A stretch of DNA of 64,000 nucleotides from Cepaea nemoralis. Taxonomy: Eukaryota; Mollusca; Gastropoda; Stylommatophora; Helicidae. Under the pieces are notes generated by a model that saw nothing but the letters and a program-made list of their open reading frames with translations, was not told the origin of the DNA and searched no databases. Below, piece after piece: positions 5,665-39,530 of this stretch. The first letter of the stretch is position 1. Every line of letters begins with the position of its first letter. Location of the stretch: the NCBI GenBank assembly GCA_014155875.1, contig JACEFZ010028321.1, positions 208,752-272,751 on the forward strand, in the 5' to 3' direction. Both the position numbers and the translations under genes were made by a program.

Positions 5665-6261
5665 GTGAGTAAATATCAGAGAGTATGAGTGAACTAGCTT
5701 TACTAAATGAGGATATACAATGAGCATAATAAATATATACATTTTGTTTGGGACAGATATTTACATTGAAACATTTTATTGAAACATGGTCACATGAGGA
5801 CAGACTTGAAAACTATGACTGTGTAATGCTGAATGTATTTGGAGAACATTTATAACTGAAAAAGATATTCAGGAAACAAAAATGAAAAGAAAGATGCAAA
5901 AAATATTGGTTATTGAAAGAAGGTAGAAATGGGAGTGGGAATAAAAATTAAAACAGATATATAATAAATAGATGTCCCAAAAGGTGATAGAAGATGATAA
6001 ATGAAATAGGATGATGACAGAACTTATACTAACTTGGATTGATGTATGGTGTGTTCCACTTAAGTCTCTGTAAGATTATAAGATCTCTTATTGCCGACTT
6101 TATTTGCCAGCTTGACCAGACACTTTAATCTAATGAATGACAAACATGACTTTAAGTATCTAAACATGGATGGCAGGATTTTGTTGGAATTTGTCATCCA
6201 ATATCGAGACCACAGCACTCAGTACATTTCCATGTGTGCTCCAGCTCCCTCAGTTGTTAAG
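5665..6261 (+). other. Intron sequence without recognised feature
   Basis: AT-rich intronic sequence between the donor at 5665 and the start of the minisatellite. I see no ORF of note, no SINE boxes and no repeat structure. Confidence 0.6.
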
Positions 6262-7303
6262 AGTATATAAACTTAGTTCTAGTAGCTACATATGTCAACA
6301 GTATATAAACTTAGTTATAGTAGCTACATATGTCAACAGTATATAAACTTAGTTCTAGTAGCTACATATGTCAACAGTATATAAACCTAGTTCTAGTAGC
6401 TACAGATGTCAACAGTATATAAACCTAGTTCTAGTAGCTACAGATGTCAACAGTATACAAACTTAGTTCTAGTAGCTACAGATGTCAACAGTATACAAAC
6501 TTAGTTCTAGTAGCTACATATGTCAACAGTATATAAACTTAGTTCTAGTAGCTACAGATGTCAACAGTATATAAACCTAGTTCTAGTAGCTACAGATGTC
6601 AACAGTATATAAACTTAGTTCTAGTAGCTACAGATGTCAACAGTATATAAACTTAGTTCTAGTAGCTACAGATGTCAACAGTATATAAACCTAGTTCTAG
6701 TAGCTACAGATGTCAACAGTATATAAACTTAGTTCTAGTAGCTACAGATGTCAACAGTATATAAACTTAGTTCTAGTAGCTACAGATGTCAACAGTATAT
6801 AAACCTAGTTCTAGTAGCTACAGATGTCAACAGTATATAAACTTAGTTCTAGTAGCTACAGATGTCAACAGTATATAAACTTAGTTCTAGTAGCTACAGA
6901 TGTCAACAGTATATAAACTTAGTTCTAGTAGCTACAGATGTCAACAGTATATAAACCTAGTTCTAGTAGCTACAGATGTCAACAGTATACAAACTTAGTT
7001 CTAGTAGCTACAGATGTCAACAGTATATAAACCTAGTTCTAGTAGCTACAGATGTCAACAGTATACAAACTTAGTTCTAGTAGCTACAGATGTCAACAGT
7101 ATATAAACCTAGTTCTAGTAGCTACAGATGTCAACAGTATACAAACTTAGTTCTAGTAGCTACATATGTCAACAGTATATAAACTTAGTTCTAGTAGGTA
7201 CAGATGTCAACAGTATACAAACTTAGTTCTAGTAGCTACAGATGTCAACAGTATATAAACTTAGTTCTAGTAGCTACAGATGTCAACAGTATATAAACCT
7301 AGT
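6262..7303 (+). repeat. 38-bp minisatellite, block 1 (about 27 copies)
   Basis: Head-to-tail 38-base units built as AGTATATAAACTTAGTTCTA followed by GTAGCTACAGATGTCAAC. Variants are few and recurrent: ACAGATG/ACATATG, AAACTT/AAACCT, TATATAAAC/TATACAAAC. The shared variants in runs point to homogenisation by unequal exchange or replication slippage. Each unit carries a TATATAAA string. The array was split by a LINE at 7304. Confidence 0.95.
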
Positions 7304-7318
7304 TAGTTAGTCGACAGA

Positions 7319-9778
7319 TCATCCTCGTTGCACATCGGACCATTCAGTCCATAAGTGCTCGGATCCCCTCCTCAGCAAATCCCGCAGCGTGTAGCGGCTA
7401 ACGACGCCAGTTCTGTGTTGGTTTATCAATCTTCTTTGGCTTCCTGCGTAGTGTTCTTGTTTGGCCACCCCTCTTTTAATTTGCTGCTCTCGCAGTCTGG
7501 CCATTGTTGTAGATTCACAGTCATCACTTGGTTCTTGCAAAAGTCTCACTTCTCGTAGAGCATTCAGAATGTCAGCCTGGTCCATGGCGCGTCCGCCCTC
7601 AACAGTAGCCTCACCTGCGAGCTTGTCAGCCCGCTCATTTCCTTGTACTCCCGCATGCCCTGGCACGAAGATGAAACTAATCTTTGCCAGCCGAGACCGC
7701 TTCAGAGGCAGCAACCATTCTCTTCGGATCGACCCCTCCTCTATCCTCTTGATCATGTTCATCGAGTCGCTAAGGAAACAAGCCCTAGTGAATGTCTGTG
7801 TCTCGAGCCATGTTATTGCTTTACTTACTGCCATGACTTCCATGGTCAGGCTACTTGTGGTTTCAGTGAAAGCACCAGAGTCCTCCTTCACAATTCTCCC
7901 TCCGGCCCGAGCTGTAAAGGCCCATGAGCTTCTCACATGTCGGACGACCGACCCATCTGTGTAGATGACCGCGTCACTGTCTAGCGAATTCTCGAAAATC
8001 AACGCTTGTACTTCAGCCTCAACAGCAGCCGGATTTTCTTGTCTGCATTTTCTATCTAGTTGGATGCAAACTGAAAAGGATGTGCAGAAGTCTGTTGGCA
8101 CTTGCACCCACTCCTCGCCAGGTTCTAAGTCCTCAAGTGAACACACCTGTTGAAGAATGTCCTCGGCTTGACCCATCCACGACCGTCCTCTTTTTAACCT
8201 GCTGCCCTTCACCTTCCTAATTTCACTATGCAGTGGATGCTGTGTGTTTGCGTTAATTCTGAGGTAGGCACGTGCCCTGCAAACTTGCATTCTCTCTTCA
8301 ATGGTTGGAAAATCAAGAAGGTAGCGCATCGCCCTGCATGCTGTATCTCTTGTACATCCAAGAATAATGCGCATAGCTTCATTCTGTATCCTTTCCATCC
8401 TTTCTATCTGCTTATGGCTGAGAGTCAGGATTGCCATTGCATACTCCAAAACAGACATGACCAGCCCCTCGTACAGAAGACATAGATGGCGCTGCTCACA
8501 GTTTGCTGCCGCCATCACCCGCATCGCTGCCAAACCCCGCTTGGCCTTTGTTATCACCTGGTCTATGTGCACATTATAAGCAAGGCTTCGATCAAACCGT
8601 ATCCCCAGGTAATTCATTGCCTGCATTCTTTCCACCGTCTCTGAACACAGCATTACAGTTGGTGTTGGATTGTTGACAATATGATTATTCAACGAGAACC
8701 AAGTCACTGTTGCCTTTGTTGGGTTGACCATTGCCCCAGCTTCATCACACCAAGTACTTATGCGATTGAGTTCGGTTTGTAGTTCCACAGCAACCTCCTC
8801 TCTATCCTTACCCTGACGATACACTAAAACATCATCGGCATATGACAATGTCCTGCCAGGTCCAGTGATCTGCTCACTGGTGATTCTCACTGTGTAGGCG
8901 TTGAACAGTACCGGAGATAATGGTGATCCCTGTGGTAGGCCAGGATATATTGTTGTTGGTTCCGAAGTCCAACTGCCACATCTAAAAACTACTTTCCGTT
9001 GGAAGAGAGCTGCAGCGATCCAACTAAGGAGGAATGGACTTACGTTTAGTTCAAGAAGCTGAAACATTAAAAAATCCAGTGGTACTCTGTTGTATGCGTC
9101 CTCAAGATCAATCGCTGCAGCAACGGTTTCAGTGCCTGAGTGGAAACCTTCATAGACATCGTGGGCAAAGACTGCTGCATTGGTCCAGGTTTCTCTTTTT
9201 GGACGGTACCCACCCAGGGTAGGTGGGAAAACACCTTGCCTCTCTAGTTGGCTTGATATTTTCCTGGCAATTACCTTCTCCAGCAGCTTGCCTATTGTAT
9301 TCTGCATGGTTATAATTCGATATCCCTGAATTTTCTTGTGGTCTTTGTCAGGCTTCGGCAAGGGAATCAGATAGCTGTGTAACCATTCCTCCTTGATGCT
9401 AGCACTCCCTATACTGTTGTTGTACATGTCTGCTAGTTTCTCTAGCTCATTGTCGGTACACCTATTTATGTCGTCGTATCTTATGCCATCAGGACCTGGA
9501 GCACTGTTTTTTGATCGTCGAAGCACAGCCTTGATTTCTTTCACTGTCACTGTGTCTTCATCCGAAGTGTTCTGGGCCTTGCATCTGTCTGAGGTGACCT
9601 CCTTGGCCAGATTCCGGCCTCCCATGTCTGTCTGGTTGCTCTGCTCAAGGTAGCGTTCAAAGAGGGCTTTGCCCTTGTCCTCGTCAGTCCTCTGCCAGAT
9701 GAGGTCAGCACCTTGGAAGTCAGAAATGCTCTTATTCTTGACTACACCACTCATGCTTTTATGTAGTCGCCAGAACAA
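7319..9778 (-). CDS. LINE reverse transcriptase-RNase H fragment, 819 codons
   Basis: Long open frame with reverse transcriptase motifs APGPDGIRYDDI, IQGYRIITMQNTIGKLLEKV, AIDLEDAYNRVP, GLPQGSPLSPVLFNAY and SYADDVLVY (about residue 312), a thumb region NYLGIRFDRSL, and RNase H with YTDGS (about 604), LTMEVMAVSKA, FLSDSMNM and VPGHAGVQGNERADKLAGE. The frame continues the same ORF as the endonuclease remnant upstream, but two frameshifts separate them. No C-terminal CCHC is seen before the stop at 7319. The Met at 9778 is only the first in the open frame, not a real start. Confidence 0.88.
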   Translation of the reverse strand: MFWRLHKSMSGVVKNKSISDFQGADLIWQRTDEDKGKALFERYLEQSNQTDMGGRNLAKEVTSDRCKAQNTSDEDTVTVKEIKAVLRRSKNSAPGPDGIRYDDINRCTDNELEKLADMYNNSIGSASIKEEWLHSYLIPLPKPDKDHKKIQGYRIITMQNTIGKLLEKVIARKISSQLERQGVFPPTLGGYRPKRETWTNAAVFAHDVYEGFHSGTETVAAAIDLEDAYNRVPLDFLMFQLLELNVSPFLLSWIAAALFQRKVVFRCGSWTSEPTTIYPGLPQGSPLSPVLFNAYTVRITSEQITGPGRTLSYADDVLVYRQGKDREEVAVELQTELNRISTWCDEAGAMVNPTKATVTWFSLNNHIVNNPTPTVMLCSETVERMQAMNYLGIRFDRSLAYNVHIDQVITKAKRGLAAMRVMAAANCEQRHLCLLYEGLVMSVLEYAMAILTLSHKQIERMERIQNEAMRIILGCTRDTACRAMRYLLDFPTIEERMQVCRARAYLRINANTQHPLHSEIRKVKGSRLKRGRSWMGQAEDILQQVCSLEDLEPGEEWVQVPTDFCTSFSVCIQLDRKCRQENPAAVEAEVQALIFENSLDSDAVIYTDGSVVRHVRSSWAFTARAGGRIVKEDSGAFTETTSSLTMEVMAVSKAITWLETQTFTRACFLSDSMNMIKRIEEGSIRREWLLPLKRSRLAKISFIFVPGHAGVQGNERADKLAGEATVEGGRAMDQADILNALREVRLLQEPSDDCESTTMARLREQQIKRGVAKQEHYAGSQRRLINQHRTGVVSRYTLRDLLRRGSEHLWTEWSDVQRG

Positions 9779-10387
9779 TTTCAGTGACTTGTCTGTGCTT
9801 ACACACCTCTGCCCATTTTTCGCTTTTAACCACCGTGACCAGTTTTTTGAAATAGCTTACTTTTGTGTGCATCTCTCTTTCTAAGTGCAAGCAGGGACTA
9901 GGATGACCAGCTCTGTTCTTCTTGGCATTTTGCCATCTCCTTACAGCACCACGCTTATCCACCCAAGCCTTCTCCACCTCGAAACTCCACCACGGTGGCT
10001 GCTCCCAGCTTTTTTTCCTTTTCTTCCTGCCTGAAACGTTCTGCGCTTGTCACGTCTTATTTTACTCACCACATCTTGCCCTGTACTGTCATACTGGAAC
10101 GTCTTTACCTTTAGCTTGTGCTGCCTGGTTCTGCCTTTCTCCACCAATATACTGCATGGGTGGTGGTCGCTGCCATGGTGTCCTAGGACACCCCATCTAC
10201 ACACTGTAGTGAGTGAAGGTGAAACTAGCGCCAGATCAATAGCACTGTCCTCATCGCCTGGACGGCTTGCTGTCCTGGTGACACAGCCACTGTTGATACA
10301 AACCAGGTCGATGGTTTCCAGTGCAGTCTCGAGCTCCTCCCCTTGTGTATTGGAGGAAGTGTTTCCCCATGATCTGCCTTTAGCGTT
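9779..10387 (-). pseudogene. Endonuclease C-terminal half and linker of the same LINE
   Basis: On the - strand, NAKGRSWGNTSS starts at 10387, followed by DSAIDLALVSPSL and GSDHHPC, the DFNAK, D and SDHH catalytic motifs of an APE-type endonuclease. This frame ends at a stop near 9941. The linker (VEKAWVDKRGAVRRWQNAKK) continues one frame over from 9977, and the RT frame resumes at 9778. Two frameshifts therefore inactivate this copy in addition to the 5' truncation. Confidence 0.78.
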
Positions 10388-10388
10388 G

Positions 10389-10427
10389 TATATATATATA
10401 ACATTTATATATATATATAAATGTTAT
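10389..10427. other. AT palindrome at LINE 5' junction
   Basis: Between the truncated LINE and the resumption of the minisatellite lies a perfect palindrome centred near 10413, half-site TATATAACATTTATATAT. It belongs neither to the LINE nor to the 38-bp unit. It could be filler DNA made during integration or a later microsatellite expansion, and would form a hairpin or cruciform. Confidence 0.7.
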
Positions 10428-11404
10428 ATATAAACCTAGTTCTAGTAGCTACAGATGTCAACAGTATATAAACTTAGTTCTAGTAGCTACAGATGTCAAC
10501 AGTATATAAACTTAGTTCTAGTAGCTACATATGTCAACAGTATATAAACTTAGTTCTAGTAGGTACAGATGTCAACAGTATACAAACTTAGTTCTAGTAG
10601 CTACAGATGTCAACAGTATATAAACTTAGTTCTAGTAGCTACAGATTTCAACAGTATATAAACTTAGTTCTAGTAGCTACAGATGTCAACAGTATATAAA
10701 CCTAGTTCTAGTAGCTACAGATGTCAACAGTATATAAACTTAGTTCTAGTAGCTACAGATGTCAACAGTATATAAACTTAGTTCTAGTAGCTACATATGT
10801 CAACAGTATATAAACTTAGTTCTAGTAGCTACAGATGTCAACAGTATATAAACTTAGTTCTAGTAGCTACAGATGTCAACAGTATATAAACTTAGTTCTA
10901 ATAGCTACAGATGTCAACAGTATATAAACTTAGTTCTAGTAGCTACAGATGTCAACAGTATATAAACTTAGTTCTAGTAGCTACAGATGTCAACAGTATA
11001 TAAACTTAGTTCTAGTAGGTACAGATGTCAACAGTATATAAACTTAGTTCTAGTAGGTACAGATGTCAACAGTATATAAACTTAGTTCTAGTAGGTACAG
11101 ATGTCAAGAGTATACAAACTTATAGTTCCAGTAGCTAGTTAGTTTCACACATATCTGCTTCACCTTCTGCATGTTCTCCATCTCCCTCAGATGTCAAGAA
11201 TATACAGACTTATAGTTCTAGTAAGTACAGATGTCAACAGTATATAAACTTAGTTCTAGTAGGTACAGATGTCAACAGTATATAAACTTAGTTCTAGTAG
11301 GTACAGATGTCAAGAGTATACAAACTTATAGTTCCAGTAGCTAGTTAGTTTCACACATATCTACCCAACCCGCTACATGTTTTCCATCTCCCTCAGATGT
11401 CAAG
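10426..11404 (+). repeat. 38-bp minisatellite, block 2, with higher-order ends
   Basis: Continuation of the array in the same phase and orientation: about 18 regular units to 11110, then a higher-order pattern in which diverged units (with AAACTTATAGTTC) alternate with a spacer reading GCTAGTTAGTTTCACACATA, a pyrimidine-rich stretch and CCATCTCCCTCAGATGTCAA. The spacer occurs twice here (about 11131-11190 and 11338-11400) and again in block 3. Confidence 0.92.
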
Positions 11405-13065: not shown

Positions 13066-13560
13066 AGATGTCAAGTCTACAAACTTACATTTCTAGTAGG
13101 TACAGATGTCAAGAATATACAGACTTATAGTTCTAATAGGTACAGGTGTCAAGAGTACAAATTTATAGTTCTAGTAACCACAGGTGTCAAAAGTATACAA
13201 ACTTAGTTATAGTAGCTACATATGTCAACAGTAAACAAACTTACAGTTCTAGTAGCTTGTTGGTTTCACATATATCTACCCCACCCTCTACATGTTTTAC
13301 ATCTCCCTCAGATGTCAACAGCATACAAACTTACAGTTCTAGTAGGTACAGATGTCAACAGCATACAAACTTACAGTTCTAGTAGGTACAGATGTCAACA
13401 GCATACAAACTTACAGTTCTAGTAGGTACAGATGTCAACAGCATACAAACTTACAGTTCTAGTAGGTACAGATGTCAACAGCATACAAACTTACAGTTCT
13501 AGTAGGTACAGATGTCAACAGTATATAAACTTAGAGACCTAGTAGCTAGTTGGTTTCACA
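13066..13560 (+). repeat. Minisatellite block 3
   Basis: The array resumes after the retroposon with diverged units, then a homogeneous run of six GGTACAGATGTCAACAGCAT-type units (about 13321-13510) with AAACTTACAGTTCTAGTA, and the pyrimidine-rich spacer again at 13250-13310 and 13545-13600. Unit sequence differs from blocks 1-2 by GCATACAAACTTACAG, indicating local homogenisation. Confidence 0.9.
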
Positions 13561-15888: not shown

Positions 15889-16079
15889 GGGGGCTGCGTG
15901 GTCTCGGGGTATGGTGTCCGCCTCGAGTGCTAGAGGTCCCGGATTCAAGCCCCGGTGTGGACCAGGAGTTTTTCACGTGGACTTCTAGTAAAAAAAATTT
16001 CCCCTGGTCTCTGGGTAGTGAGAACGGACGCCCATGTGTATTGTTGCGCACGTAAAAAAAAAAAATCCCTTGGCGAGTT
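15889..16079 (+). mobile_element. tRNA-derived SINE, family 5, left part (split by LTR element)
   Basis: tRNA-like head: TGCGTGGTCTCGGGGTATGG (A box) and GGTCCCGGATTCAAGCCCCG (B box), then a body with CCTGGTCTCTGGGTAGTGAG and an A-rich stretch. It is interrupted at 16079 by the LTR retrotransposon and continues at 25593 with GTTGGAAATCGAATAAAGAG, so the element is older than the LTR insertion. Confidence 0.72.
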
Positions 16080-16690
16080 TGTCAACAACCAATGTTTCAG
16101 GCATCATCGGATTACTTCTCCCACACCACACAAGAAACTTGCAAGTCGTGTGAGAGGAAATGAATGATACATTTTATTGCCGTTGGCTCTTTACAATTAC
16201 AAAACAGTCGCTATCAAATCACACACAAAGCCACAGAATTGCCTATCACTAGTTTCCTAACCCTATTGCTAATCTCTATCTATTTGGCTACACAAAACTC
16301 CTATCAACACTAAACGATCTGCTCGCTACGAAGTCAGTCCCCAGTCTGACTTTCCTACTCGCGTGGCTACACAGCACGCGGAAGGACCTTGATGCGTCCT
16401 TCGGCTTTTTGCACGCCGTTACACTTAGCACGCTTATATTAGCTGTCTCCTATTGAGTGGCAATCGTGGCTATCACGTAGGCGTGATTCTGTCGTGACCA
16501 GAGTGCTAACTATCTGGTCGACGTCTCCGTGTCTCATGAGAGAACTAGTTAATAGTCCCCCATTCTATCACCTACCCTGCCCTTATATCGGGGCACTGTA
16601 TTACCTCTAATCTACTTGAGGTTGACCACTCTTCCCGGTGGTCTTCTATCTTGAGGCAGACCTCCGGCCTCTATGTTTCAGTCTTTGACA
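16080..16690 (-). repeat. 3' LTR (left)
   Basis: In element sense it begins TGTCAAAGACTGAAACATAG and ends GGTTGTTGACA, giving the inverted termini TGTCAA...TTGACA. It matches the right LTR over its full 611 bases apart from four substitutions (near 16411-16415, 16477 and 16523) and two single-base indels. Confidence 0.95.
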
Positions 16691-16706
16691 CACACCCTCC
16701 CCTCCT
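16691..16706 (-). promoter_or_regulatory. Polypurine tract
   Basis: Immediately upstream of the 3' LTR in element sense the - strand reads AGGAGGGGAGGGTGTG, the expected primer for plus-strand DNA synthesis. Confidence 0.85.
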
Positions 16707-18927
16707 GTGTTGCGTCATCAACTTTGACTCATTGGTTGTGACGCAAGAGGTTTCTAAAAAATTAGTGTATCTAATTTTTGTCAAAGACTGTAGATAACCT
16801 GGCTTTGGGTAACTCAATAGACTTCTACTGACTATTGTCACAATGTAGTATCACTTTACTTGGCTACTGGCAATCGCCACAAACTTGTCTGGTTGGCGTG
16901 AGCCCTCTTCTCAATCGCAATATTATATTAATTAGAGGTATGTCTGAACCGGACCGTTGTCTTATAAGACCTGCCCTCAAATAGTAAATTAACTCACTAC
17001 CCATACAAAGTTGACTTTCTTAGGGTCAACACATGAATTGCTTCATGTCCCCCATATAATATTAAACAACCATTACACAAGCTGTGTGCGACAGGCTTTA
17101 CCTATTTCGCTTCCGCGTGTAAAGTTATCTTTCACTGTTAAGTTAGTGTTTCGTTGTCTATTATGTCCCCTGACCCGGAGTTATCTCCCTTTGATCTACA
17201 AAAAATGTATGCAATTTATATGTTTGTTTTCCTGGATGTTTGCGTGTTTGGATCTAACTAATAGTATAATCTAACTTCTAACATGTGTATCCAACTATCA
17301 TGTGTATGTATGTTAGTTTTCAAGTGCCATAATTCGGTTAAATGTGGCCACAAACAAGTGTATAACACTAATTCGTGACTACGTTTCCGTCTTATGAGAC
17401 TTAAAATACTTTCTCTAAGATCTATACTAAACTACACACAACACATTCACGACAACACATTTTCAACATCGAAAACAAACATTTGACGCAGACAAAAAAT
17501 AAAAAGTCGCGTTGAGCGGCAGAAAAAATCCGCTGACTGATCTCACTCTCTCTTGTATAATTTACATTTGCTCTCCCTTTCACACTTCTGTCACACATCT
17601 TTTACCCTTACTTCTGTCACACATCTTTTACCCTCACAATTATTTAAAAACCTTGGAGTGACACTGTACAAGTTTGGCTCAGTTTGACAAAGTTGAGCTT
17701 AATGACTGTGCGTAAATTGCTGCACGAGTCATGTATTTACAACATATTTACATGTAAGAGAAAGGGTTGATGGTTTGTACCCTGGTATTATTAACCACTA
17801 TATTCTACTGAAATAATACTCTAAATACTGAAATGCTAATACTAGTTCTATAAATATGTATTTAATGTGTTACCTATTTTAATCTATTTTGCCACATTAA
17901 TCCTAATATTTATCTAATTTAAGGGACGTAATCTAATTATTTAAAATGGAATTGATGTGACATGAGTTATGTAACTTTCTGAATGGGTAATGTGAAATGT
18001 AATAAATTATGTACCTTTCTAACATGGGTAATGTGAAATATAACAAAATTCTAACTAATGTTTTTAAATGAAAAAAATATATGATTGATATTCTTACTCT
18101 AAATGGTGTAAATGATGTATGTTTACTTGTATAATCCTTTTATCCTATTACGGTGTAAACTAATTATAATACTAAATGATAACGTTTGTTAAATGGACTG
18201 GTTCATTAAGATGGAATGAACTCAAGTGAAATGAACCTAAGTGAAATGTAACAAACTAAATGGTAATATTACTATCTAAATTTAATCCTAGTTTATATTT
18301 AGCTGTTATTACGTTTAAATTACTATCCTAATCTACTTTTAAGCTAAGTAAGTGGGTGAATTAATGATCTATCTAAACTAACTGAAAACTATTATATTTC
18401 CTAAATCTTACATATATGTTAGAGTGATCTAATCTACTATAATTTATCACTATATTAAAATATTATAATACATATCACAATCAGTATATATATACATGGT
18501 ATTCAATTACCTCAGGTCAGTTGTTGTCTTAATGTTTAGAAATTGCTTTCATAGGCATACTCTATATACACAATTGGCCTGGGTATATGAAATACATTAC
18601 ACAGTCATACTTGTGTCCTATGGGTATTGCATCTGTAGAGTTCGCTTGTGTCGTAGACCAGTATTTTCGTGTCTGTATTTATGTACTGTTCTGACACTGT
18701 TCTTCTATGCTTATACAGATGGTTCACCGGCACACATATGAAGCTTAGTATATAACGAGCTGTCTCAGTTCACATGGTGATATACTTGTTTTCGAAGCAC
18801 AGTTCTTATGTTGAAGTCTACGGACACATGGTAGTTCACCGTTCTTAGTACGTGGTTCAGAACATAATGTCTATGTATTCGTAAAATATATCACATAGAA
18901 TATTCGAATGTACCAATTTAATATCTA
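16707..18927 (-). other. Long 3' non-coding region of the LTR element
   Basis: About 2.2 kb of very AT-rich sequence between the RNase H stop and the polypurine tract. No env-like ORF with signal peptide or membrane segments is seen on the sense strand; the only ORFs are short. An untranslated region this long is unusual and might be a decayed third gene, but I see no trace of one. Confidence 0.6.
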
Positions 18928-21291
18928 CTACTCTACACTCTTATGTGGAATCTCCGGTATTTCTATCTCAGATGGTCGACTAAGGGTATCAGCCAGAATG
19001 TTGTCCTTACCCTTAATATGCTCTATACTAAAAGTATAGTTTTGTAGTATTAGCGACCACCTGTATATACGGTCATTCCGATGCACACCACTTTGTATGA
19101 CCGTGATTGGGGAGTTGTCAGTCTGGACAACGAAGTGAACACCCGCTAGAAATCGATGGAGCTTTCTCACCGCATAGATGACGCTTAGGGCTTCCAACTC
19201 TGATATGGAATATCTGGACTCAGCAGGTGTGATCTTACGGCTCACGTAGCAAATCGGATGGAAGATGCCATCATAAAATTGGCCTAGTACTGCAGCGATG
19301 GAGATTCTGCTGGCATCTGTCCTAAGATAATAAACGAGCCTAGGATTAGGCAAGCGAAGGATTGGTACATTACTAAACAGGATTTTCAATTTTGACAATG
19401 CAGAAATTAATAATGCATCTTTGACATCTAATTTTACAGATGCTTTTAAAACATTGGAAAATACACTTGTAATTTCCGCTAAGTTTGGTATGAATTTGCT
19501 ATAGTAATTTACTAACCCCAAAAGGCTTCTGACCTGCTTCTTTGTGGTAGGCATGGTCAGGTTCATAATTTTGGTAATAATTCTATTGTCAGTCTTAAGT
19601 TGACCTTGTGAAATGACATGACCCAAAAAATCAATTTCTTTTAGACCCAATTCGACTTTGCTCGGTTTGACAGTGAGACCGAAGAGTCGCAACCTATCGA
19701 AGACATGTCTTAGTTTCAGTAAGTGTGTTGTCCAGTCATCAGTATGGACACATATATCATCTATATAAGTCACTGTATTCGTCACTCCATGAAGTAGATC
19801 TCTAGTTAAGCGTACGAAAGTGGCAGGAGCGTTTCGAAGTCCGAAAGGAAGAAAACGCCACTCGTACAGTCCTAAAGGTGTTGAAAAAGCAGTAAGATGA
19901 ATGGATTGAGTCTGCATAGGGACCTGCCAATATCCCTTAGTAAGATCTAATTTAGAAAAGATTTTGGAGGTGGACATGTCAAGAATAAGATCTTCGCAGG
20001 AAGGAATTGGTTCTGCGTCGATCTTAGTGACGTTGTTGAGCTTTCGATAGTCCACACACAGACGAATTGTGGAGTCTTTTTTCTTAACTAGGACGATTGG
20101 AAAGGAGTACTCAGATGTAGATTTCTGGATGATCCCACTAGCTTCTAAATTAAGAATTTCCTTATTTAGACTTTCTCTATAGCTGAGTGGGATAGAGTAC
20201 GGCCTGCATTTGATAGGCTTAGAGTCCGAAAGAAGAATGGAGTGCTCGATTCTGTCCGTCCTACCTGGAATGTCAGAAAATATGTCTTTATACTCCGTCA
20301 CTAATTCTACTAATTGTCGTCGTTGACTGTCTGTTAGTCCCTGTTCTATCCGTATGCTATCTAATGTCGCAGTCTTGTCTACAATGGGAACAGGTAGTTC
20401 CATTCCGTCGTCGTCTACCTGATTCAGTACGGTGGTGGTGCTAAGTGCGTATTCTGTAAGCTCACTAGGTGTATGGATATCGTCGGATTTGCCAGTCTCG
20501 CTAACTAGTGTAGTTGCGTTGTGTATGTCTGTCGTCTGATCACTAGGTGTGGGTGCACTGTGTTCGTCTGTCTCTACTTCTGTCTCTTGTCGTGAAAAGT
20601 AAGGTTTCAACATGTTGACATGGAATATCTTTAAGTGTCCGTTTATCGATATTTCATAGTCAACATCTGAAATTTTACGTACCACCTTGAATGGCCCTTG
20701 CCATGAGGTCAATAATAAATTTCGTTTGTCTGGAAGTAACAAAAGTATGTCTTGATCTGGTTCAAGATCAATTGTTCTCGCACCTTTGTTTGCGTATTGG
20801 CGGTAGATTTGACCCTTCCTCTCCAAAGCTGCCTTAGCTATAATACACGATTTCATGATTTTGTCTCGTGTTTCTGTCACCATTTCATAAGGTGTTTTTG
20901 GGGTTGGAATTTCAATGGAATTAGTTATTACCTGATGGTAAATGGTTAGGGGTCCACGTGGGTTAGCCCCGTATACTAATTCAAACGGTGAGAAACCCGT
21001 GCTTGAATGGGGAATCTCCCGATAGGCAAACAGCACTGTTGGTAACAGTGTATCCCAATCAGCTGGGTTTTCTGCTGTCACCTTAGCCAGCATATGCTTA
21101 AGATCTCCGTTAATTTTCTCTACTATCCCATTGCTGGCTGGATGGTACGCTGTTGTAAAATGCTGTTTAATCCCTAACATTTTTGTAAGGGCTTGCGTTG
21201 CAGCCGATATGAATTGAGTTCCACGATCGGATAAGATGGTACGTGGAAATCCGAATCGTGAGAACAGGATGTAGAAATACATTGGCAACAT
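18928..21291 (-). CDS. pol: integrase core - RT - RNase H (787 codons)
   Basis: Open frame with, in order, the second half of the integrase core (LSDRGTQFIS with Asp 22, NGIVEKINGDLKHML with Glu 58, exact D-x35-E spacing), the integrase C-terminal GPF module (WQGPFKVVRKI, about residues 195-255), an acidic linker (about 255-340), Ty3/gypsy RT (IRLCVDYRKLN, FSKLDLTKGYWQVPM, FLPFGLRNAPATF, TYIDDICVHTDD with YIDD about 508, FLGHVISQGQ), and RNase H (LRTDASRISIAAVLGQ about 655, YSISELEALSVIYAV, VQTDNSPI about 722, LADTLSRPSE). The frame continues the protein upstream at 21280-22144 after a one-base shift. The Met at 21291 is inside the shifted overlap and not a real start. Confidence 0.93.
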   Translation of the reverse strand: MLPMYFYILFSRFGFPRTILSDRGTQFISAATQALTKMLGIKQHFTTAYHPASNGIVEKINGDLKHMLAKVTAENPADWDTLLPTVLFAYREIPHSSTGFSPFELVYGANPRGPLTIYHQVITNSIEIPTPKTPYEMVTETRDKIMKSCIIAKAALERKGQIYRQYANKGARTIDLEPDQDILLLLPDKRNLLLTSWQGPFKVVRKISDVDYEISINGHLKIFHVNMLKPYFSRQETEVETDEHSAPTPSDQTTDIHNATTLVSETGKSDDIHTPSELTEYALSTTTVLNQVDDDGMELPVPIVDKTATLDSIRIEQGLTDSQRRQLVELVTEYKDIFSDIPGRTDRIEHSILLSDSKPIKCRPYSIPLSYRESLNKEILNLEASGIIQKSTSEYSFPIVLVKKKDSTIRLCVDYRKLNNVTKIDAEPIPSCEDLILDMSTSKIFSKLDLTKGYWQVPMQTQSIHLTAFSTPLGLYEWRFLPFGLRNAPATFVRLTRDLLHGVTNTVTYIDDICVHTDDWTTHLLKLRHVFDRLRLFGLTVKPSKVELGLKEIDFLGHVISQGQLKTDNRIITKIMNLTMPTTKKQVRSLLGLVNYYSKFIPNLAEITSVFSNVLKASVKLDVKDALLISALSKLKILFSNVPILRLPNPRLVYYLRTDASRISIAAVLGQFYDGIFHPICYVSRKITPAESRYSISELEALSVIYAVRKLHRFLAGVHFVVQTDNSPITVIQSGVHRNDRIYRWSLILQNYTFSIEHIKGKDNILADTLSRPSEIEIPEIPHKSVE

Positions 21292-22144
21292 CTTTGGAGG
21301 TGATGTATTTCAAAGCTACTGCCTCAACCCACCTTGAACATAGGTCGACCATCGTTAATATGAAGCGATTTCCTTTGCTGGACACCTGATTCAGGGGTCC
21401 AACAATATCTACCGCCACACTTTCAAATGGCCTAGAAGCCAGTGTAGAAGGTTGTACTTCAGCTGTAGGATGTTTACCCTTACGTACTAATTGTTGACAG
21501 ACATTACAAGAACGACAAAATAATTTTATATCATTGCAAAAACCTGGCCAATAAAAATGAGCCTGAATTCTGGCCCTGGTTTTGTCGTATGCAAGGTGAC
21601 CAGCAAACGGTGACTCATGTGCAATCTTTAGCACAGTTAGGCGGTGTTGTACAGGTAACACCGTTTGCTGAATCTCATGGTTACCAGTTGTATAATACCT
21701 AGTAAGAATGCCATTATTAAGTCTAAAGAACCATGATGCGTTTTTGGTCACTTTGGCTCTTTCTTTCAATAATTTTAAATATGGAGACACACTAGGATCA
21801 GCTTTCTGCTGTTCTATAAATTTTTGTCTGGTGGTATCATCTGTGCTAGTTGGGGAAAGCAACAGTAGTCTCTCATTTTGTAGTGTGTCTTGATGTTTTA
21901 TAGCGTCTGCTCTGGTTGTTGCATTAGCTACATTTAATTTTTCCCATGCAGCTATTTCATCGCTAGTACATTGTTTCAATTGGGGTAAGCAACCCAAAAT
22001 TAAATCAGTACAAGGGTTGTCAAGTATTGCACAAGTAAAGGTACCAGAAAGGAAAGGAGTGTTAATACGGGCTTTGGCCAAAGGGTAAATTTCAATGTTA
22101 CCCGAAAAGGTTCGGCATTTGACAGAGTCAGCCTGTATAATCAC
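21167..22144 (-). CDS. pol: protease C-terminus and integrase N-terminus
   Basis: Residues 1-60 or so are the second half of an aspartic protease (ILDNPCTDLILGCLPQL). About residues 170-220 form the integrase zinc-binding domain (HESPFAGHLAYDKTRARIQA, then LFCRSCNVCQQL), followed by the start of the DDE core (ESVAVDIVGPLNQVS, TMVDLCSRWVEAVAL). At about 21285 the true reading shifts by one base into the frame of the 787-codon ORF (KDVANVFL joining YILFSRFGFPRTILSDRG), so the last 35-40 codons here are not real. The one-base shift lies between the first and second catalytic Asp. Confidence 0.88.
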   Translation of the reverse strand: MIIQADSVKCRTFSGNIEIYPLAKARINTPFLSGTFTCAILDNPCTDLILGCLPQLKQCTSDEIAAWEKLNVANATTRADAIKHQDTLQNERLLLLSPTSTDDTTRQKFIEQQKADPSVSPYLKLLKERAKVTKNASWFFRLNNGILTRYYTTGNHEIQQTVLPVQHRLTVLKIAHESPFAGHLAYDKTRARIQAHFYWPGFCNDIKLFCRSCNVCQQLVRKGKHPTAEVQPSTLASRPFESVAVDIVGPLNQVSSKGNRFILTMVDLCSRWVEAVALKYITSKDVANVFLHPVLTIRISTYHLIRSWNSIHIGCNASPYKNVRD

Positions 22145-22354
22145 CTGGACTCACCAGTTCCTTTCTAAGACCAATAAGGGTGCTGCCGCTGTCCAGCAAA
22201 CATTAGGCATGGTCTATCATTGACCATTGCATTGTGGAACACCAAATTGCCTCTGGAGGCTAAGGCTGCATTTACACTCTCAGTTGAGAATGGTACTGTA
22301 TGTCCACATTCTAATTTTCCGTCTGCATGAAATTGGTGACATCGTTCACAACTG
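22145..22354 (-). pseudogene. pol: protease active-site region, frameshifted
   Basis: On the - strand, between gag and the next pol frame, one reads CERCHQFHADGKLECGHTVP (a Cys/His cluster) and, in another frame, CLLDSGSTLIGLRKELVSPG with the DSG active site at 22196-22182. Both frames are broken by stops, so at least two indels separate gag from pol. Whether one of them is a natural programmed shift cannot be told from one copy. Confidence 0.75.
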
Positions 22355-23791
22355 TCAAAAGCTCAATATATCGTTTACACAACACACATCTTCAGATTGG
22401 TTAACAGGTAATTCATTTTCAACATCACACTCAGTGTCACTACCACTATCAGAAGATGTATCAATCAAAATAGCATTGTTGGCTTTCATACGTTGGCGGC
22501 CCAGGCACTTATTTGAATAATGGCCGTAGCTGGAACAAAAGAAGCATTTGATTGCACGCCTGTATGCAGATCTTTTGTTTTGTTGCTTCTTAATAACATT
22601 TTCAAGATGTGCCGGATAGTTTGGCGATTTATCACACATAGAATAAGTGTCATGCAAAAGTTGACAGTAGATACATTTTGACACTTTCCTATCTTTCTTG
22701 TCGACTCTATGAAATGGTTTTCTATTACTTTGATAGTTTTTAGGTTGGTCCTTTACAAAAGAAACTACTTCAGAGTCATTTGAAGTCTTAAAAATATCTC
22801 TATTTGAAGAAAAATATGCAGAGCCTTTCTTTTCGAATTGTTCTATGTTCTCAATGTCTGACTGCTGCAGGAATTTAGCAAACGGAGATGGTATAGTGGA
22901 TATGACTTTATCCATGGCTATTAAATTTTTAAGTCTGTCAAAGTCTTTTCCTATGTTAGCTGCTTTAAGCCACCTATCTAGTACACTTTGAACATTTGAG
23001 ACGTAATCAATGAAAGTCTCACTAGGTTTTGGTTTTAAATTTGAGAACTGAACCTGATACCCAGGGGCATCAAGTAAAAAGTGTTGCATTATCCTATCAT
23101 GGATGTACTGATAGTTAGATCTAAGATCAGTTGGTATAGATTCTATCACTTTAAGGGGCTCACCACTCAGGTTCTTCATATAAATCATAGCCCACATCTC
23201 TATTGGAACTTGGTGGTATTTAAACTGATACTCGACATTTTCTGTCCAGGCTGATATGGAATCTTCTTTACAATATGGTTTGATAATATTTTTGTATTTG
23301 TTGAACTTATTTTCTTCTTGTTGACTTTTTAGTTTAGTAGCAGAGATCTCTACGTGTGAGTCTACATCCATACCTTTCATCTTTAACTGTGTCTCTGATT
23401 CTACTTGTATTTGTTTTTCCTTAACTCTTGCCATTTCATCTATCTCTTTTTGCTTTAGTTCTCTCTCCTGATCTAATTGCTTTTGCTTTAATTCTTTCTC
23501 TTGATCTAATTGCTTTTGTTTTAATTCTAATTCCTTCTGTTTAATTTCCTTATCCTGTTCTGACTGTTTTAGCTTAATCTCCTTATCATGTTCTAACTGT
23601 TGTTGTTTAATTTGTAGCTCTTTTTGTTTTGTTATCTCAGCTAGTTCTATCTGGTGTTGTCGTTCTTGTGCACGTTCATCTCTCTCAGCATCTTCTGCTT
23701 CCTTAAATTTCTGCTCAGCATATTGTTCTAAGTCCTTTCCTGTGTATTGTAAATCTTTGCCTGCTTTTATGAAGTCAGCTAACGTAGCCAT
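22355..23791 (-). CDS. gag-like protein with coiled coil and zinc knuckle (478 codons)
   Basis: Starts MATLADFIKAGKDLQYTGKD at 23791, with no competing upstream Met. Residues about 40-165 are a Glu/Lys/Gln-rich coiled coil including near-exact repeats of KQKQLDQEKEL. Residues about 185-330 look like a gag capsid core (WTENVEYQFKYHQVP, IMQHFLLDAPGYQVQFSNLK, SETFIDYVSNVQSVLDRW). Residues about 416-429 are a CX2CX4HX4C zinc knuckle, CFFCSSYGHYSNKC, for RNA packaging, with a second Cys cluster (CIYCQLLHDTYSMC) before it. It forms the particle in which reverse transcription happens. Confidence 0.87.
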   Translation of the reverse strand: MATLADFIKAGKDLQYTGKDLEQYAEQKFKEAEDAERDERAQERQHQIELAEITKQKELQIKQQQLEHDKEIKLKQSEQDKEIKQKELELKQKQLDQEKELKQKQLDQERELKQKEIDEMARVKEKQIQVESETQLKMKGMDVDSHVEISATKLKSQQEENKFNKYKNIIKPYCKEDSISAWTENVEYQFKYHQVPIEMWAMIYMKNLSGEPLKVIESIPTDLRSNYQYIHDRIMQHFLLDAPGYQVQFSNLKPKPSETFIDYVSNVQSVLDRWLKAANIGKDFDRLKNLIAMDKVISTIPSPFAKFLQQSDIENIEQFEKKGSAYFSSNRDIFKTSNDSEVVSFVKDQPKNYQSNRKPFHRVDKKDRKVSKCIYCQLLHDTYSMCDKSPNYPAHLENVIKKQQNKRSAYRRAIKCFFCSSYGHYSNKCLGRQRMKANNAILIDTSSDSGSDTECDVENELPVNQSEDVCCVNDILSF

Positions 23792-24950
23792 GTTATTGGG
23801 AGCTTAGATAGCTTTGAAAGGCACTCAAATAACTACTTACTTATTTATCTTAGATACGGCTTATTTATTTTAATCTCTGAGCACTATCAATTGTACTCTT
23901 TGTTTATAACCTGGAAAATTTTATCCTGAAAAAACAGAGCACAAACATATGCTAATGCATCACACGCTGAAAAAGAGATGCACTATTAATCACATTGCAT
24001 GCCAAATATATTGAGTATACTCAACTTAATGTTCCCGAGAATCAGGAACACCAATCCGGTAACACAGGTCACCTCGTTTGGCACTTCGGCATACACACGA
24101 GTTTTCTAATCAGCTGTTGTTCACCCTGGTTCACAGAGCAGCAACAATTAACAAATAGTAAACGACATATAATATTCTCGACAATTTGGTACAATCACAA
24201 TGACATGCCCACGGACAAACAGAATATAGTTTAATTAATATTAAATTGTCAATGTCCTGTCTTCGTTCTACCGTTTTATGCCTTTCGTTACTAACCTAGT
24301 TTAATCTATGGAAGTGTTGTGCAGACCAAGTCTAATTTGCATGGCCAAAAGTAGTGCCATCGTGACGGTAAACAAATAGAAAAAGTACGAAAAAAAATTC
24401 AATAACTGCTTTCAAATAAATAAAAATATAATAATAATGTTTAAATAACTAAATATATTCAATTACTAACTTAAATAAACAAATAATAGTTAATATAAAG
24501 CACAGATTCAGGCGGGCAGCAGCTTGACGATTTGTAAACAATCAGATGCTGAATGCGAATGGCGTAGAACAACTGCTTGTCAATCGTACTACGTCAGAGG
24601 CGCAGCGCTATTTTTAGCTTGCAAAAATCGATAATGTTGCTGGCCTGTGTATCGCTCCGCCATGAATCATTATTTGATAGTTATTCATAAACAAATCAAT
24701 AATTACATAAATAAATGAAAGAAAATAATAATATCAATACTTACAACTTTGAAGAACACATGATTAAGTACATAATATTTTAATAAACACAAATAAGCAT
24801 TATTTTGTCACGATAGGCACAGTTTAGCTCGCAACTCGTTCTAGTCTGCACACGTCATCAGTCACTGACACAAATTAAACCTGTAATTCACTATTCGTAA
24901 CCTTAGTCTAGAGCCGTGGGTAAGTGTAATAGCTTGAACATTTGTCCAAG
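23792..24950 (-). other. 5' untranslated leader of the LTR element
   Basis: About 1.15 kb between the primer-binding site and the gag start. It is AT-rich, without a coding frame on the sense strand. Confidence 0.6.
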
Positions 24951-24967
24951 CCACACTTCTGACACCA
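24951..24967 (-). promoter_or_regulatory. Primer-binding site, likely tRNA-Leu
   Basis: On the - strand TGGTGTCAGAAGTG begins 14 bases inside the 5' LTR. The + strand CACTTCTGACACCA equals the 3' end (with CCA) of animal tRNA-Leu(CAG) as I know it, with 14 matching bases. The 14-base gap to the LTR is longer than usual. Confidence 0.75.
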
Positions 24968-24981
24968 CATTAATCCTCGCC

Positions 24982-25592
24982 TGTCAACAACCAATGTTTC
25001 AGGCATCATCGGATTACTTCTCCCACACCACACAAGAAACTTGCAAGTCGTGTGAGAGGAAATGAATGATACATTTTATTGCCGTTGGCTCTTTACAATT
25101 ACAAAACAGTCGCTATCAAATCACACACAAAGCCACAGAATTGCCTATCACTAGTTTCCTAACCCTATTGCTAATCTCTATCTATTTGGCTACACAAAAC
25201 TCCTATCAACACTAAACGATCTGCTCGCTACGAAGTCAGTCCCCAGTCTGACTTTCCTACTCGCGTGGCTACACAGCACGCGGAAGGACCTTGATGCGTC
25301 CTTCGGCTTTTTGCGTGCCGTTACACTTCAGCACGCTTATATTAGCTGTCTCCTATTGAGTGGCAATCGTGGCTATCACATAGGCGTGATTCTGTCGTGA
25401 CCAGAGTGCTAACTATCTGGTCGACGCCTCCGTGTCTCATGAGAGAACTAGTTAATAGTCCCCCATTCTATCACCTACCCTGCCCTTATATCGGGCACTG
25501 TATTACCTCTAATCTACTTGAGGTTGACCACTCTTCCCGGTGGTCTTCTATCTTGAGGCAGACCTCCGGCCTCTATGTTTCAGTCTTTGACA
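24982..25592 (-). repeat. 5' LTR (right)
   Basis: Upstream LTR of the - strand element, 611 bases, same termini as the left copy. It should contain the promoter and the start of the genomic RNA; I could not place a TATA box or the R region with confidence. Confidence 0.95.
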
Positions 25593-25800
25593 CAGTTGGA
25601 AATCGAATAAAGAGTAGCCTAACGGCGCTGTCCGGGCAAAATTTCGAGTTAAAAATCTACCCAAAGTATTTCAGGAACCTCGCCGTGCTACGGAGTTCGT
25701 GCACTGAGCTGAGTTTCTCTAAACTCAGGTTTGAGTTAGGAGAAGAACGGAGCACTTATGGGTTACACCCGTGTGCATCTTTCCCATTGTAGCGGCATGC
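25593..25800 (+). mobile_element. tRNA-derived SINE, family 5, right part
   Basis: Continuation of the SINE at 15889-16079. Joining GGCGAGTT (16072-16079) to GTTGGAAATCGAATAAAG across the LTR element gives a continuous sequence. The end is taken near TTTCCCATTGTAGCGGCATG and is approximate. Confidence 0.6.
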
Positions 25801-27283: not shown

Positions 27284-28918
27284 TTAAAATTGTCCTGCTG
27301 AATATGCAGGACCTCCCTCCAGAGCATGCAGCTCACCTTGTCTCTTTAATTTGGCCGCTCGTACAGTGTCGCGTCTTTTAGTTTGTTTGTCCTTCTTGTA
27401 CTTAAGACTATTTCTTACTTGCTTCTGCATCCTAAATGTTCCTAGTCTCTGCATATGCAGGCCTGTAGAAAGTCCATAAAACTGGGTAGTGTCTTGGGCA
27501 GCAGCAGCTCCAAAGTTGAACTCTCTTGCTGCAGTTACAACTGCAAACTGAACGCGCTTGCGTGAGGCAAAGTTGTCTTTAGTGCATCGAGCCCATATCA
27601 AGCTGTGTAAACACTCATTTGAATTCTGAGTTTGTCCTGACACACATCTACTAAGTAGTTTAGTTTAGTTTGCGCAGTGCTGTTCCAAGGCGTTTACTGA
27701 CATGGTTGATACACTCCTCTTTGTCTATCTGAATGTCATCCCCATATTGTTTGATCTTGGTAAGTTCCGCAAATGTTTTGGTGTCACCATCAGAAAGTAT
27801 TGACGTGTAGCGAAGTTTATGACGGGCCACAGACCGTCGCCGCAGCATCCTTGCAGCCTTCACCTCCATCATTCCAGCAGATCCTGTGAAATTGTTGTCA
27901 CAGTTTAGAAGATGTTCTGCCTTCCATGCTGCAAATTCATCTGGTTTGTCCCTGGAAAGTCTTACCAGTGGTTTCACACACCTGGCAATATGTGGACATA
28001 ACATGGGCATCTATGCAAAGTCCCGTAAGAACATCCACTGCACAGCCAACTCCAATGTGGGATGTGTGGCCTCTAGTCAGCCAAGTGCCATCAAAGCTGA
28101 CACTAATATCTAGCACATCATTGTCATGTAGAGTTATGCCTGACTGTTGTGCATGAGCCTGTCGAACATACTTTACGGTTTGAGAAAAAACAGTGTCCTC
28201 CAGATATTCTATCTTTGAATATAGTTTATTCGCTTTGCTGTGAAATGTTTTGTGATGAATACCTTGCAGGTTTATATTTTCACAAAAATTATTAAATGTT
28301 GTTGCACCCATCCCACAAACTAATGCTGAATATACTGACTGGCTGTTGACAGGAAAAGATCTATCCCCAACATTACTTTTTTCAGATAGGTATCTTCCAC
28401 ACACTACTTCTTCACAACAAGAGCAGTAAACCTCTGCATACACAGCTAATCCCTTGGCTTTCTTGCTGTCAGTTTTCAAAATAAGACTATCATTTTTACA
28501 AACTGGACAACATAACAATTTGATTATTGCCTCAATTTCTGAACAATCAACAATTGCTCTGTGTTCCCGTTTTTGATATCCATTGTCCTCACCAGAATCA
28601 TACTTGCTGCTAGTGGATATTGTGTATTTATACGTATCTCTTTTAAATTGGCTTCGGGTAATAAAAGAATCACTTCCACAACTTTGAGAAGAACACGATA
28701 GCACTGATTCATTCAGATTCACTGTCAAAACACTTGGATTTGGAAGTGGCATGTGCACTTTAGCTGGGTCGCTTTCAGTAGTTTCAGAATTGTCTGTATC
28801 ATTTACGACGTTCTGATAGGTTTTCGCTGCTTACGAGCATTTGCGAGGTGTAGTCTGAGAGATTACTTACGTTGAGTGGATGACTGCATGTTAAATTTCT
28901 TAGAACGAGGCATATTTC
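27284..28918 (-). pseudogene. Mutator-like (MULE) DDE transposase, broken
   Basis: The - strand start MPRSKKFNMQSSTQRK at 28918-28870 is followed by stops. The open part 28758-27937 holds a CCPVCKNDSLI zinc site, CSCCEEVV, and the first catalytic Asp in VSFDGTWLTRGHTSHIGVGC. After a frameshift near 27970 the next frame (to 27660) has WKAEHLLNCDNNFTGSAGMM and LSDGDTKTF (second Asp) and ends CINHVSKRLGTALRKL. A third frame (27643-27284) has QTQNSNECLHSLIWARC with the catalytic Glu. About 100 residues normally found between these last two blocks are missing. This matches the Mutator-like transposase family common in mollusc and cnidarian genomes. TIRs could not be placed, so element limits (roughly 26800-29300) are uncertain. 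Confidence 0.78.
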
Positions 28919-29708: not shown

Positions 29709-31000
29709 CTTCATTCATTCATTCAGTAGCATGTCCTTTGCAGAACCTCGCTCCCATAACAACCTTCCGGAAAACCTCTCGATCATAAGCAAGATGTCCC
29801 GCGTCTGATACACCCATCTGGAGATCATCCGCCACATCCTGCACCCATCTTCTCTTTGGCCTTCCTCTTCCTCTCTTCCCAGGCATATACCCCTCCATTA
29901 TTGTTCTCTCCAGACTTTCGTGACGTTTCAAGTGACCAAAATATTTCAATGTTCTTTGTTTTATCGTCTTTAATAGCCAACATTCTTCAATATTCAACTC
30001 TTGAAGTATGGATGCATTTGTTCTTTTCTTTACCCAAGATATTCTTAGAACTCGTCTATAACATTTATATTCAAAGGCGTTTATGCGCTGTTCAGCTTGT
30101 TTAGTAAGTGTCCATGTCTCACAGGCGTATGTTGCAATGGGAAAGATGCATGCTCTTAAAAATCTAATTTTTGTAGTTCTATCTGTCCCACTCCATAATT
30201 TATTCAGCTGTTTTAGTCTTTGAAGAGCAATTGATAGTCGCCGTTTAATTTCTTTCATTGTGTCACCGTTGTTGGTAATCAATGAACCAAGATATTCAAA
30301 ATTTTCCACTACCGCCAATTTTTCCCCATTAATGTATATTTCTTTCTCCATAGTAGTTTTATCTGTATGCATTATCTTTGTTTTTGCTATGTTAAGATAT
30401 AAGTTGTGATTTTCACTATTCAATTGGGTTGAAGCTATTAGGTTTTCTATGCCATTCTGTGTTGTGGATAGTAATACTGTATCATCAGCATATCAAATCT
30501 CCGGTATGTCATGACTGCCGATATTTAGGGCATCATATAGCTCCCTGTTTATATCATCTCTTACATTTCTCATTATATTTTCGGCGTACAGGTTAAACAA
30601 ATAGGGTGACAGCACACAGCCCTGACGGACTCCTTGCTTGATGTCAAACCAATCTGATGCCTCGCCATCTATTCTAACTGCTGCTTGTTGGTCTAGATAG
30701 AGCATTTTTATGAGTTGTACTACATGTGATGGAAAGCCCATATTCCTCATGATTTCCCAAAGTTTCTGATGTTGTACACAGTCAAATGCTTTTGAATAAT
30801 CCACAAAACATGAGAATAGGTTTACATTAAATTCTCTGCACTTCTCTATTATTAAACGCATGTTGAATATGTGATCTCTTGTTCCTCATCCTTGTCTAAA
30901 TCCAGCTTGAACTACGTTAATCTCTTCTTCCATTTTCTTATGAAGTCTTCCCATTATGACTTTTAGTAGAATTCTCGAACTTACTTCCACAAAATGCTCT
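29709..31000 (-). mobile_element. RTE-like LINE, 5'-truncated, - strand
   Basis: Read on the - strand: QAGFRQG near 30900, FVDYSKAFDCVQHQKLW, GVRQGCVLSPYLFNLYAENI (frame 30861-30493), then after an in-frame stop YADDTVLLSTT, and the frame 30423-29719 with NFEYLGSLITNNGD, YACETWTLTKQAEQRI and a C-terminus RGRPKRRWVQDVADDLQMGV. The 3' end reads TTCTGCAAAGGACATGCTAC and finishes in a TGAATGAATGAA tail at 29709-29725. One stop separates the RT from its YADD motif, so the copy is dead. Clade assignment to RTE is by general resemblance only. Confidence 0.83.
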
Positions 31001-38464: not shown

Positions 38465-39530
38465 CACTGACCACAGCAATCATGGACCACAGCAACCACT
38501 GACCACAGAAACCACTGACCATAGTAACCACAGAAACCACTGACCACAACAACCACTGACCACAGCAACCACAGAAAACCACTGACCACAACAACCACCG
38601 ACCATAGCAACCACAGAAACCACTGACCACAACAACCACCGACCATAGCAACCACTGACCACAACAACCACCGACCATAGCAACCACAGAAACCACTGAC
38701 CACAACAACCACCGACCATAGCAACCACAGAAACCACTGACCACAACAACCACCAACCATAGCAACCACAGAAACCACTGACCACAACACCCACTGACCA
38801 TAGCAACCACAGAAACCACTGACCACAACAACCACCGACCATAGCAACCACAGAAACCACTGACCACAACAACCACCGACCATAGCAACCACAGAAACCA
38901 CTGACCACAACAACCACCCGACCATAGCAACCACAGAAACCACCTGACCACAACAACCACCGACCATAGCAACCACAGAAACCACTGACCACAACAACCA
39001 CAGACCATAGCAACCACAGAAACCACTGACCACAACAACCACCGACCATAGCAACCACAGAAACCACTGACCACAACAACCACCGACCATAGCAACCACA
39101 GAAACCACTGACCACAACAACCACCGACCATAGCAACCACAGAAACCACTGACCACAACAACCACCGACCATAGCAACCACAGAAACCACTGACCACAAC
39201 AACCACCGACCATAGCAACCACAGAAACCACTGACCACAACAACCACTGACCACAACAACCACCGACCATAGCAACCACAGAAACCACTGACCACAACAA
39301 CCACCGACCATAGCAACCACAGAAACCACTGACCACAACAACCACCGACCACAGCAACCACAGAAACCACTGACCACAACAACCACTGACCATAGCAACC
39401 ACAGAAACCACTGACCACAACAACCACCGACCACAGCAACCACAGAAACCACTGACCACAACAACCACCGACCATAGCAACCACAGAAACCACTGACCAC
39501 AACAACCACCGACCACAGCAACCACTGATT
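38465..39530 (+). repeat. 41-bp minisatellite (about 25 copies) in the BDH1-like intron
   Basis: Unit GACCACAACAACCACCGACC then ATAGCAACCACAGAAACCACT, nearly perfect, with a few partial units and base changes near each end. The G-free strand is + . Because 41 is not a multiple of 3, all three - strand frames of the array spell the same 41-residue repeat (WLLWSVVSVVAM and similar), which produces three overlapping 340-417 codon ORFs that are artefacts of the repeat. Confidence 0.96.

Follow-up and report, generated by a model that had tools for sequence, protein, structure and literature searches.

An integrase-first, Gmr1-like LTR retrotransposon in the genome of the land snail Cepaea nemoralis

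A 64,000-nucleotide stretch of the Cepaea nemoralis assembly (contig JACEFZ010028321.1; hereafter the window) carries on its minus strand an LTR retrotransposon whose integrase lies ahead of its reverse transcriptase (RT). The locus raises the question whether this order is an inherited property of a known lineage or the product of a local event. The preliminary description had read it as a young mollusc LTR element of the Ty3/gypsy type with the pol order of Gmr1, and this reading was borne out. The integrase-first order is real and inherited, and it belongs to a lineage that is already described, widespread in animals, and neither new nor rare. The element in the window is very probably a recently inserted, now defective, high-copy Gmr1-like Ty3/gypsy LTR retrotransposon.

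The features of the element are listed in Table 1. The LTR boundary (TGTC...GACA, 611 bp) was set by comparison with other copies. The two near-identical LTRs lay where the preliminary description had placed them; 4 substitutions over about 611 sites and 2 indels of one base set them apart. The flanking sequences AACTG and AACTC matched at 4 of 5 bases and form a possible target-site duplication. The PBS-like stretch TGGTGTCAGAAGTGTGGC, which we take to be approximately the complement of the 3' end of tRNA-Leu, kept its position after the 5' LTR in 9 of the 9 other copies read, one of which had one difference. Because the site lies 14 nt from the LTR end (window 24950-24981), unprocessed cDNA would carry extra bases. 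Three of the nine other copies (L050, L060, and L065) had GGCA... after the 3' LTR, resembling the bases of the LTR-PBS spacer, and were without a clear target duplication; these copies, small in number, possibly reflect unusual end processing.

Table 1. Features of the LTR retrotransposon, in window coordinates.
Feature	Position	Strand	Remark
LTR retrotransposon, whole	16080-25592	-	LTR pair at near-constant spacing plus internal domains
5' flank AACTG	25593-25597	-	One half of possible target-site duplication
5' LTR	24982-25592	-	611 bp, TGTC...GACA
PBS-like stretch TGGTGTCAGAAGTGTGGC	24950-24967	-	Starts 14 nt inward of 5' LTR end
Presumed 5' untranslated region	23804-24981	-	5' LTR to gag; by position
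gag frame	22355-23803	-	482 codons between stops; capsid and zinc knuckle behind a long helical N-terminus
Capsid region	22808-23233	-	Homologous to SCAN-bearing capsids of integrase-first relatives
CCHC zinc knuckle	22505-22546	-	Read from ORF; columns conserved in alignment
Protease, N-terminal part including DSG	22131-22362	-	Two frames; pieces match P0002 residues 153-199 and 205-227
LDSGS protease motif	22182-22196	-	
Frame with remaining protease, integrase zinc domain, and first part of integrase core	21167-22150	-	
Integrase zinc domain (Integrase_H2C2)	21491-21655	-	Pfam 6.6e-18
Integrase core, first part	21287-21436	-	Pfam rve; holds first catalytic D
793-codon frame (stop to stop)	18928-21309	-	Second part of integrase core, GPF, RT, RNase H
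GPF module (Integrase_p58_C)	20602-20697	-	Pfam
RT (RVT_1, YIDD)	19612-20088	-	Pfam 1e-29; YIDD read from ORF
RNase H	19036-19401	-	Pfam
pol-to-3' LTR region	16691-18927	-	2.2 kb; longest minus-strand stop-to-stop frame 68 codons
Polypurine tract AGGAGGGGAGGG	16695-16706	-	4 nt upstream of 3' LTR
3' LTR	16080-16690	-	611 bp
3' flank AACTC	16075-16079	-	Other half of possible target-site duplication

The rest of the window also held repeats. Minisatellite arrays of 38-40 bp with a similar unit were found at 6251-7304, 10427-11343, and 13066-13545, the first two flanking a LINE-like stretch (endonuclease, RT, RNase H) at 7319-10423. RVT_1 frames resembling LINE remnants lay at 60538-61473 and 29719-30492, the latter under the Pfam cut-off, and a Mutator-like transposase remnant at 27937-28830 (Pfam PF20700, 1.2e-23). 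At 38465-39528, a 41-bp unit (ACCACAGAAACC...) was repeated over 1 kb with all three minus-strand frames open, and a 165-bp unit was exactly duplicated in tandem at 56370-56699.

The domain order on the minus strand was gag, protease, integrase (zinc domain, DDE core, GPF module), RT, and RNase H. The DSG of the protease, placed at 22196 in the preliminary description, was recovered within LDSGS (22182-22196). Pfam and the ORFs also confirmed an integrase zinc domain, a DDE core with D-x35-E, and a GPF module ahead of RT (YIDD) and RNase H; the D-x35-E lay in the second part of the core and was read from the ORF of the 793-codon frame. The rve match came in two pieces with E values of 0.0085 and 1.9e-6, each alone under the Pfam cut-off. 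Integrase and RT had been thought to share a single unbroken frame of 787 codons, and this did not hold. The 793-codon frame starts partway through the integrase core. A separate frame (21167-22150) encodes the zinc domain and the first catalytic D, and the frame change falls between this D and the second one.

The protease of the window copy consisted of three frame pieces, which matched the consecutive residues 153-199, 205-227, and 228-282 of the Bradybaena protein P0002. From gag to RT, the frame changed at least four times (once between gag and protease, twice within the protease, and once in the integrase core), and the window copy is therefore defective despite its young LTRs. Short tandem repeats, of 21 and 33 bp, code for the helical N-terminal stretch of Gag (window 23438-23613), the length of which may therefore differ among copies.

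Among the 120 best database matches to the RT-RNase H (RT-RH) region, 85 had integrase before RT, 34 had RT-RH only, and one (P0001) was a standard-order tandem. P0001 is a predicted protein in which parts of two gypsy polyproteins are joined head to tail; as a top match, it could mislead a reading of the order. A search from P0001 gave 119 new proteins, of which 102 were RT-RH-ZN-IN, 8 were RT-RH-ZN, and 9 were tandem or mixed. From a sea-cucumber relative, 115 of 115 new proteins were integrase-first. The closest named relatives, with 51-52% identity over RT-RH, were P0002 and P0003 of Bradybaena and P0004 of Candidula unifasciata. P0002 (Bradybaena similaris) is a Pol protein with the integrase-first order in a single chain, and P0003 and P0004 are RT-RH proteins. 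The names of the integrase-first relatives covered snails, oysters, clams, scallops, abalones, echinoderms, and one hemichordate, and the order was present in database proteins of Haliotis, Magallana, Argopecten, Pecten, Dreissena, Biomphalaria, and others. No relative named Gmr1 or from fish was among those returned. In the viral contigs scanned, no relative of any name was found.

The RT+RH tree had 50 rows. One side of a branch with 100/99 support carried 35 that were integrase-first, the window being one of these, and 4 with RT-RH alone. Two Bradybaena rows and one of Candidula grouped with the window at 100/99, the branches inside this group of four being weak (97/37). Because of the frame break, the integrase was analysed as two separate halves. 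The trees of the N and C halves, of 44 rows each, both split integrase-first from integrase-last rows at 100/100, with bootstraps unsettled. In the C half, the window was placed with Bradybaena P0002, Biomphalaria P0023, and the unnamed P0019 at 100/96 (bootstraps unsettled), Bradybaena being nearest. The shortest paths from the window in the N-half tree led to P0019 and Bradybaena; the pairing of window and Bradybaena was weak (74/0), and the highest identity of the window was to P0103.

A conflict between the RT and integrase trees was looked for and not found, and the trees were congruent. RT and both integrase halves grouped with integrase-first and not with standard-order elements, the latter set coming from one query and presumably being CsRn1-like. 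The best RT identity of the window to this set was 38%. The standard-order row P0207, which had a very long branch, was removed before the final RT and integrase trees; in the first trees it stood beside the integrase-first rows (RT) or among them (integrase C half). The order of row P0001b was labelled unknown, its integrase-first label having been a tandem artefact. Since the standard-order rows came from one query, the trees test congruence and placement; they neither address whether the order arose only once among gypsy elements as a whole nor show integrase-first elements as one clade against every other gypsy clade.

A capsid profile of SCAN-bearing integrase-first relatives matched the window gag at E 4e-24, the best of 2000 shuffles reaching 0.026. 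The profile matched 138 of 354 proteins (132 integrase-first, 6 RT-RH only, and 0 integrase-last), and capsid and integrase-RT stood in one chain in 132 relatives, some of which are gene models. A five-sequence profile including the window matched PEG3 (8.1e-6), ZNF174 (2.4e-4), ZNF24 (3e-4), and weakly ZNF42 (0.59), in chains which we take to be SCAN domains; it also gave two weak unrelated matches (0.025 and 0.66). Pfam found no SCAN match in the window gag alone. It found one in each of the 24 relatives in the same alignment, 23 of which were already SCAN-listed at selection.

The AlphaFold model of Gag had a mean pLDDT of 77 and a pTM of 0.43. In the PDB, the predicted fold was nearest to the retroviral-type capsids PNMA2, MLV capsid, Arc, and MOAP1, with no match at E 0.001 and a best value of 2.5e-3. 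By profile, then, the SCAN-related Gag capsid, a reported Gmr1-like trait, was present. According to PMC3424704, SCAN goes back to the Gag of a Gmr1-like element, and PMC4131045 reports it in more than half of the frog Gmr elements.

The name of the Gmr1 clade rests here on the domain order, the SCAN-type capsid, and the echinoderm and hemichordate relatives, the likeness to the type Gmr1 being by description. It is improbable that the element represents an integrase-first gypsy lineage apart from Gmr1 which gained the order independently. Such a lineage would accord with Table 1 of a mollusc survey, whose 21 gypsy clades omit Gmr1 (PMC6238403, which in its accessible text mentions Gmr1 once, in the introduction), and with the absence of the type Gmr1 from the trees. 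However, snail, bivalve, echinoderm, and hemichordate elements fell together in one integrase-first cluster in the RT and integrase trees, and the SCAN-type Gag accompanies this cluster.

Assignment to the Gmr1 clade also agrees with the order described in the relevant passages of PMC2582038, PMC6238403, PMC3587641, and PMC8220671. The earlier view of the Gmr1 group as a rare deuterostome exception was not upheld. In 2013, PMC3587641 presented four crustacean elements with kinship to the Gmr1 clade, reportedly the earliest known from protostomes, and an annelid family of Gmr1 type followed in 2021 (PMC8220671); a restriction to deuterostomes is therefore outdated. In a literature search limited to open full text, no report that names a Gmr1 element from a mollusc came to light, which is not proof that none exists.

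The genome was then the source of further copies (assembly of 3.47 Gb, 26,579 contigs). The 793-codon frame gave at least 57 scored matches there (window included) with 97-100% identity, and 16 of the 57 listed had stop-free frames of at least 1,500 codons (1,500-1,649 codons). All 20 fetched loci of the same family (window and 19 others) had the order ZN-IN-RT-RH; copies with standard order were looked for and found at 0 of the 20 loci. The LTR search gave 40 scored places (2,950 candidates) at 99-100%, including the 3' LTR of the window itself. LTR pairs of nine other copies differed by 2-7 substitutions across 284-622 sites. Both ends could be read in eight of these copies: five had target duplications of 4-5 bp (GTCAC, AGCC, CTGTA, GTATC, and CCCAT) and three had none; the ninth was left out of this count, its 5' LTR start lying outside coverage.

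A sample of 20 loci, roughly each seventh entry among 150 scored rve matches in this genome, had RT downstream of integrase at 18, no RT found at 2, and RT upstream at 0. For the eight top rve matches, with 1.5 kb of flank per side, the counts were 6, 2, and 0. The sampled best rve matches made up a second integrase-first family (L009-L028), with about 63% identity to the window over RT-RH; it matched the SCAN-type capsid profile, and its member L012 grouped with the window in a quick RT tree. Because the rve and family samples were taken from the best-scoring matches, they are uninformative on overall abundance.

These copies leave almost no weight to the idea that the order arose by local rearrangement or by an assembly join of fragments of two elements. 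The integrase core is indeed divided across two frames exactly where the long frame starts, as such a join would have it. However, the order is shared by all 20 same-family loci, the relatives of RT agree with those of both integrase halves, and Bradybaena P0002 carries the same order in one protein. The join was rejected on the finding that in 15 of the 19 other fetched copies a single frame ran through the zinc domain, the integrase core, and RT, which upholds the earlier statement that the order is no assembly artefact. A Ty1/copia element, in which integrase before RT is the normal order, is suggested by the order alone and can be dismissed by domain type (gypsy-type RT of the RVT_1 family, integrase with an H2C2 zinc domain and a GPY/F (GPF/p58_C) module), with no copia-type family listed by Pfam at E 0.1 in the three frames scanned and Ty3 as the best match among known structures (6.7e-92).

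The inherited order is accompanied by frame changes of the window copy itself. A programmed frameshift is an unlikely cause, because 16 of the 57 matches were stop-free over at least 1,500 codons and 132 relatives had single chains. A pure assembly error at the integrase break is likewise unlikely, because one of the 19 other loci (L030) had the same spacing as the window at this break and row C24870 matched from residue 1 in the 793-codon frame, as in the window. The LTRs of these two copies were 88% and 93-94% identical to those of the window. The shared break may go back to one defective parent, to recombination, or to a recurrent indel. The frame changes of the protease were read in the window copy alone, and for these an assembly error is possible.

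The window copy would have moved through the usual cycle of LTR retrotransposons, in which RT and RNase H would copy the element transcript inside a Gag particle, starting from a primer at the PBS-like site, and the integrase would insert the cDNA and duplicate about 5 bp of the target. To judge from the frames of about 1,500-1,650 codons in other copies, gag-PR-IN-RT-RH would form one reading frame, so the order would alter the cut sites of the polyprotein and not the chemistry. With at least four frame changes, the window copy should not now yield a complete Gag-Pol, and its further movement would require the proteins of other copies.

These results mean that, among gypsy elements, the copia-like pol order is inherited stably and widely, protostomes included, and that Gag, integrase, and RT travel together in the integrase-first lineage. 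Surveys based on RT/RNaseH trees need not reveal the order; the most interesting by-product is the mollusc survey without a Gmr1 clade set against mollusc database proteins with the order. The MolGy clades of mollusc surveys were named from RT/RNaseH trees alone. We suggest tentatively, with rather more doubt than confidence, that the integrase-first (Gmr1-like) lineage is a main, recently active LTR lineage of land snails, that some MolGy clades are integrase-first, and that defective copies here may spread via the proteins of intact ones. Land-snail genomes with recent LTR expansion, as described for Oreohelix in part of PMC9719178, would be a good setting in which to measure the integrase-first share.

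Compared with known systems, the standard Ty3/gypsy elements (P0121-P0239; Ty3) have the same types of RT, RNase H, and integrase domains as the window. In P0121-P0239, however, integrase follows RNase H (102 of 119 RT-RH-ZN-IN), opposite to the window, and this standard trait was absent from the window and from all 20 same-family loci. Bradybaena P0002 has the same domain order; by identity, it and the proteins P0003 and P0004 belong to a different family. The Gmr1 clade (Gmr1 of Gadus morhua, crustacean GyRex4/5, annelid LGF3, and fish Gmr1-4) shares with the window the order PR-IN-RT-RH (read as IN-RT-RH in the 20 same-family loci), the gypsy-type RT and integrase, and the SCAN-related capsid. 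The window differs from it in the long stretch that separates pol from the 3' LTR and in broken protease and integrase frames. Tetraodontiform fish Gmr elements, as far as their published description was available, are 6.1-6.5 kb in length, whereas the window element is about 9.5 kb; their Gag and Pol together have 1,506-1,634 aa, and the frames of the other copies here have 1,500-1,649 codons.
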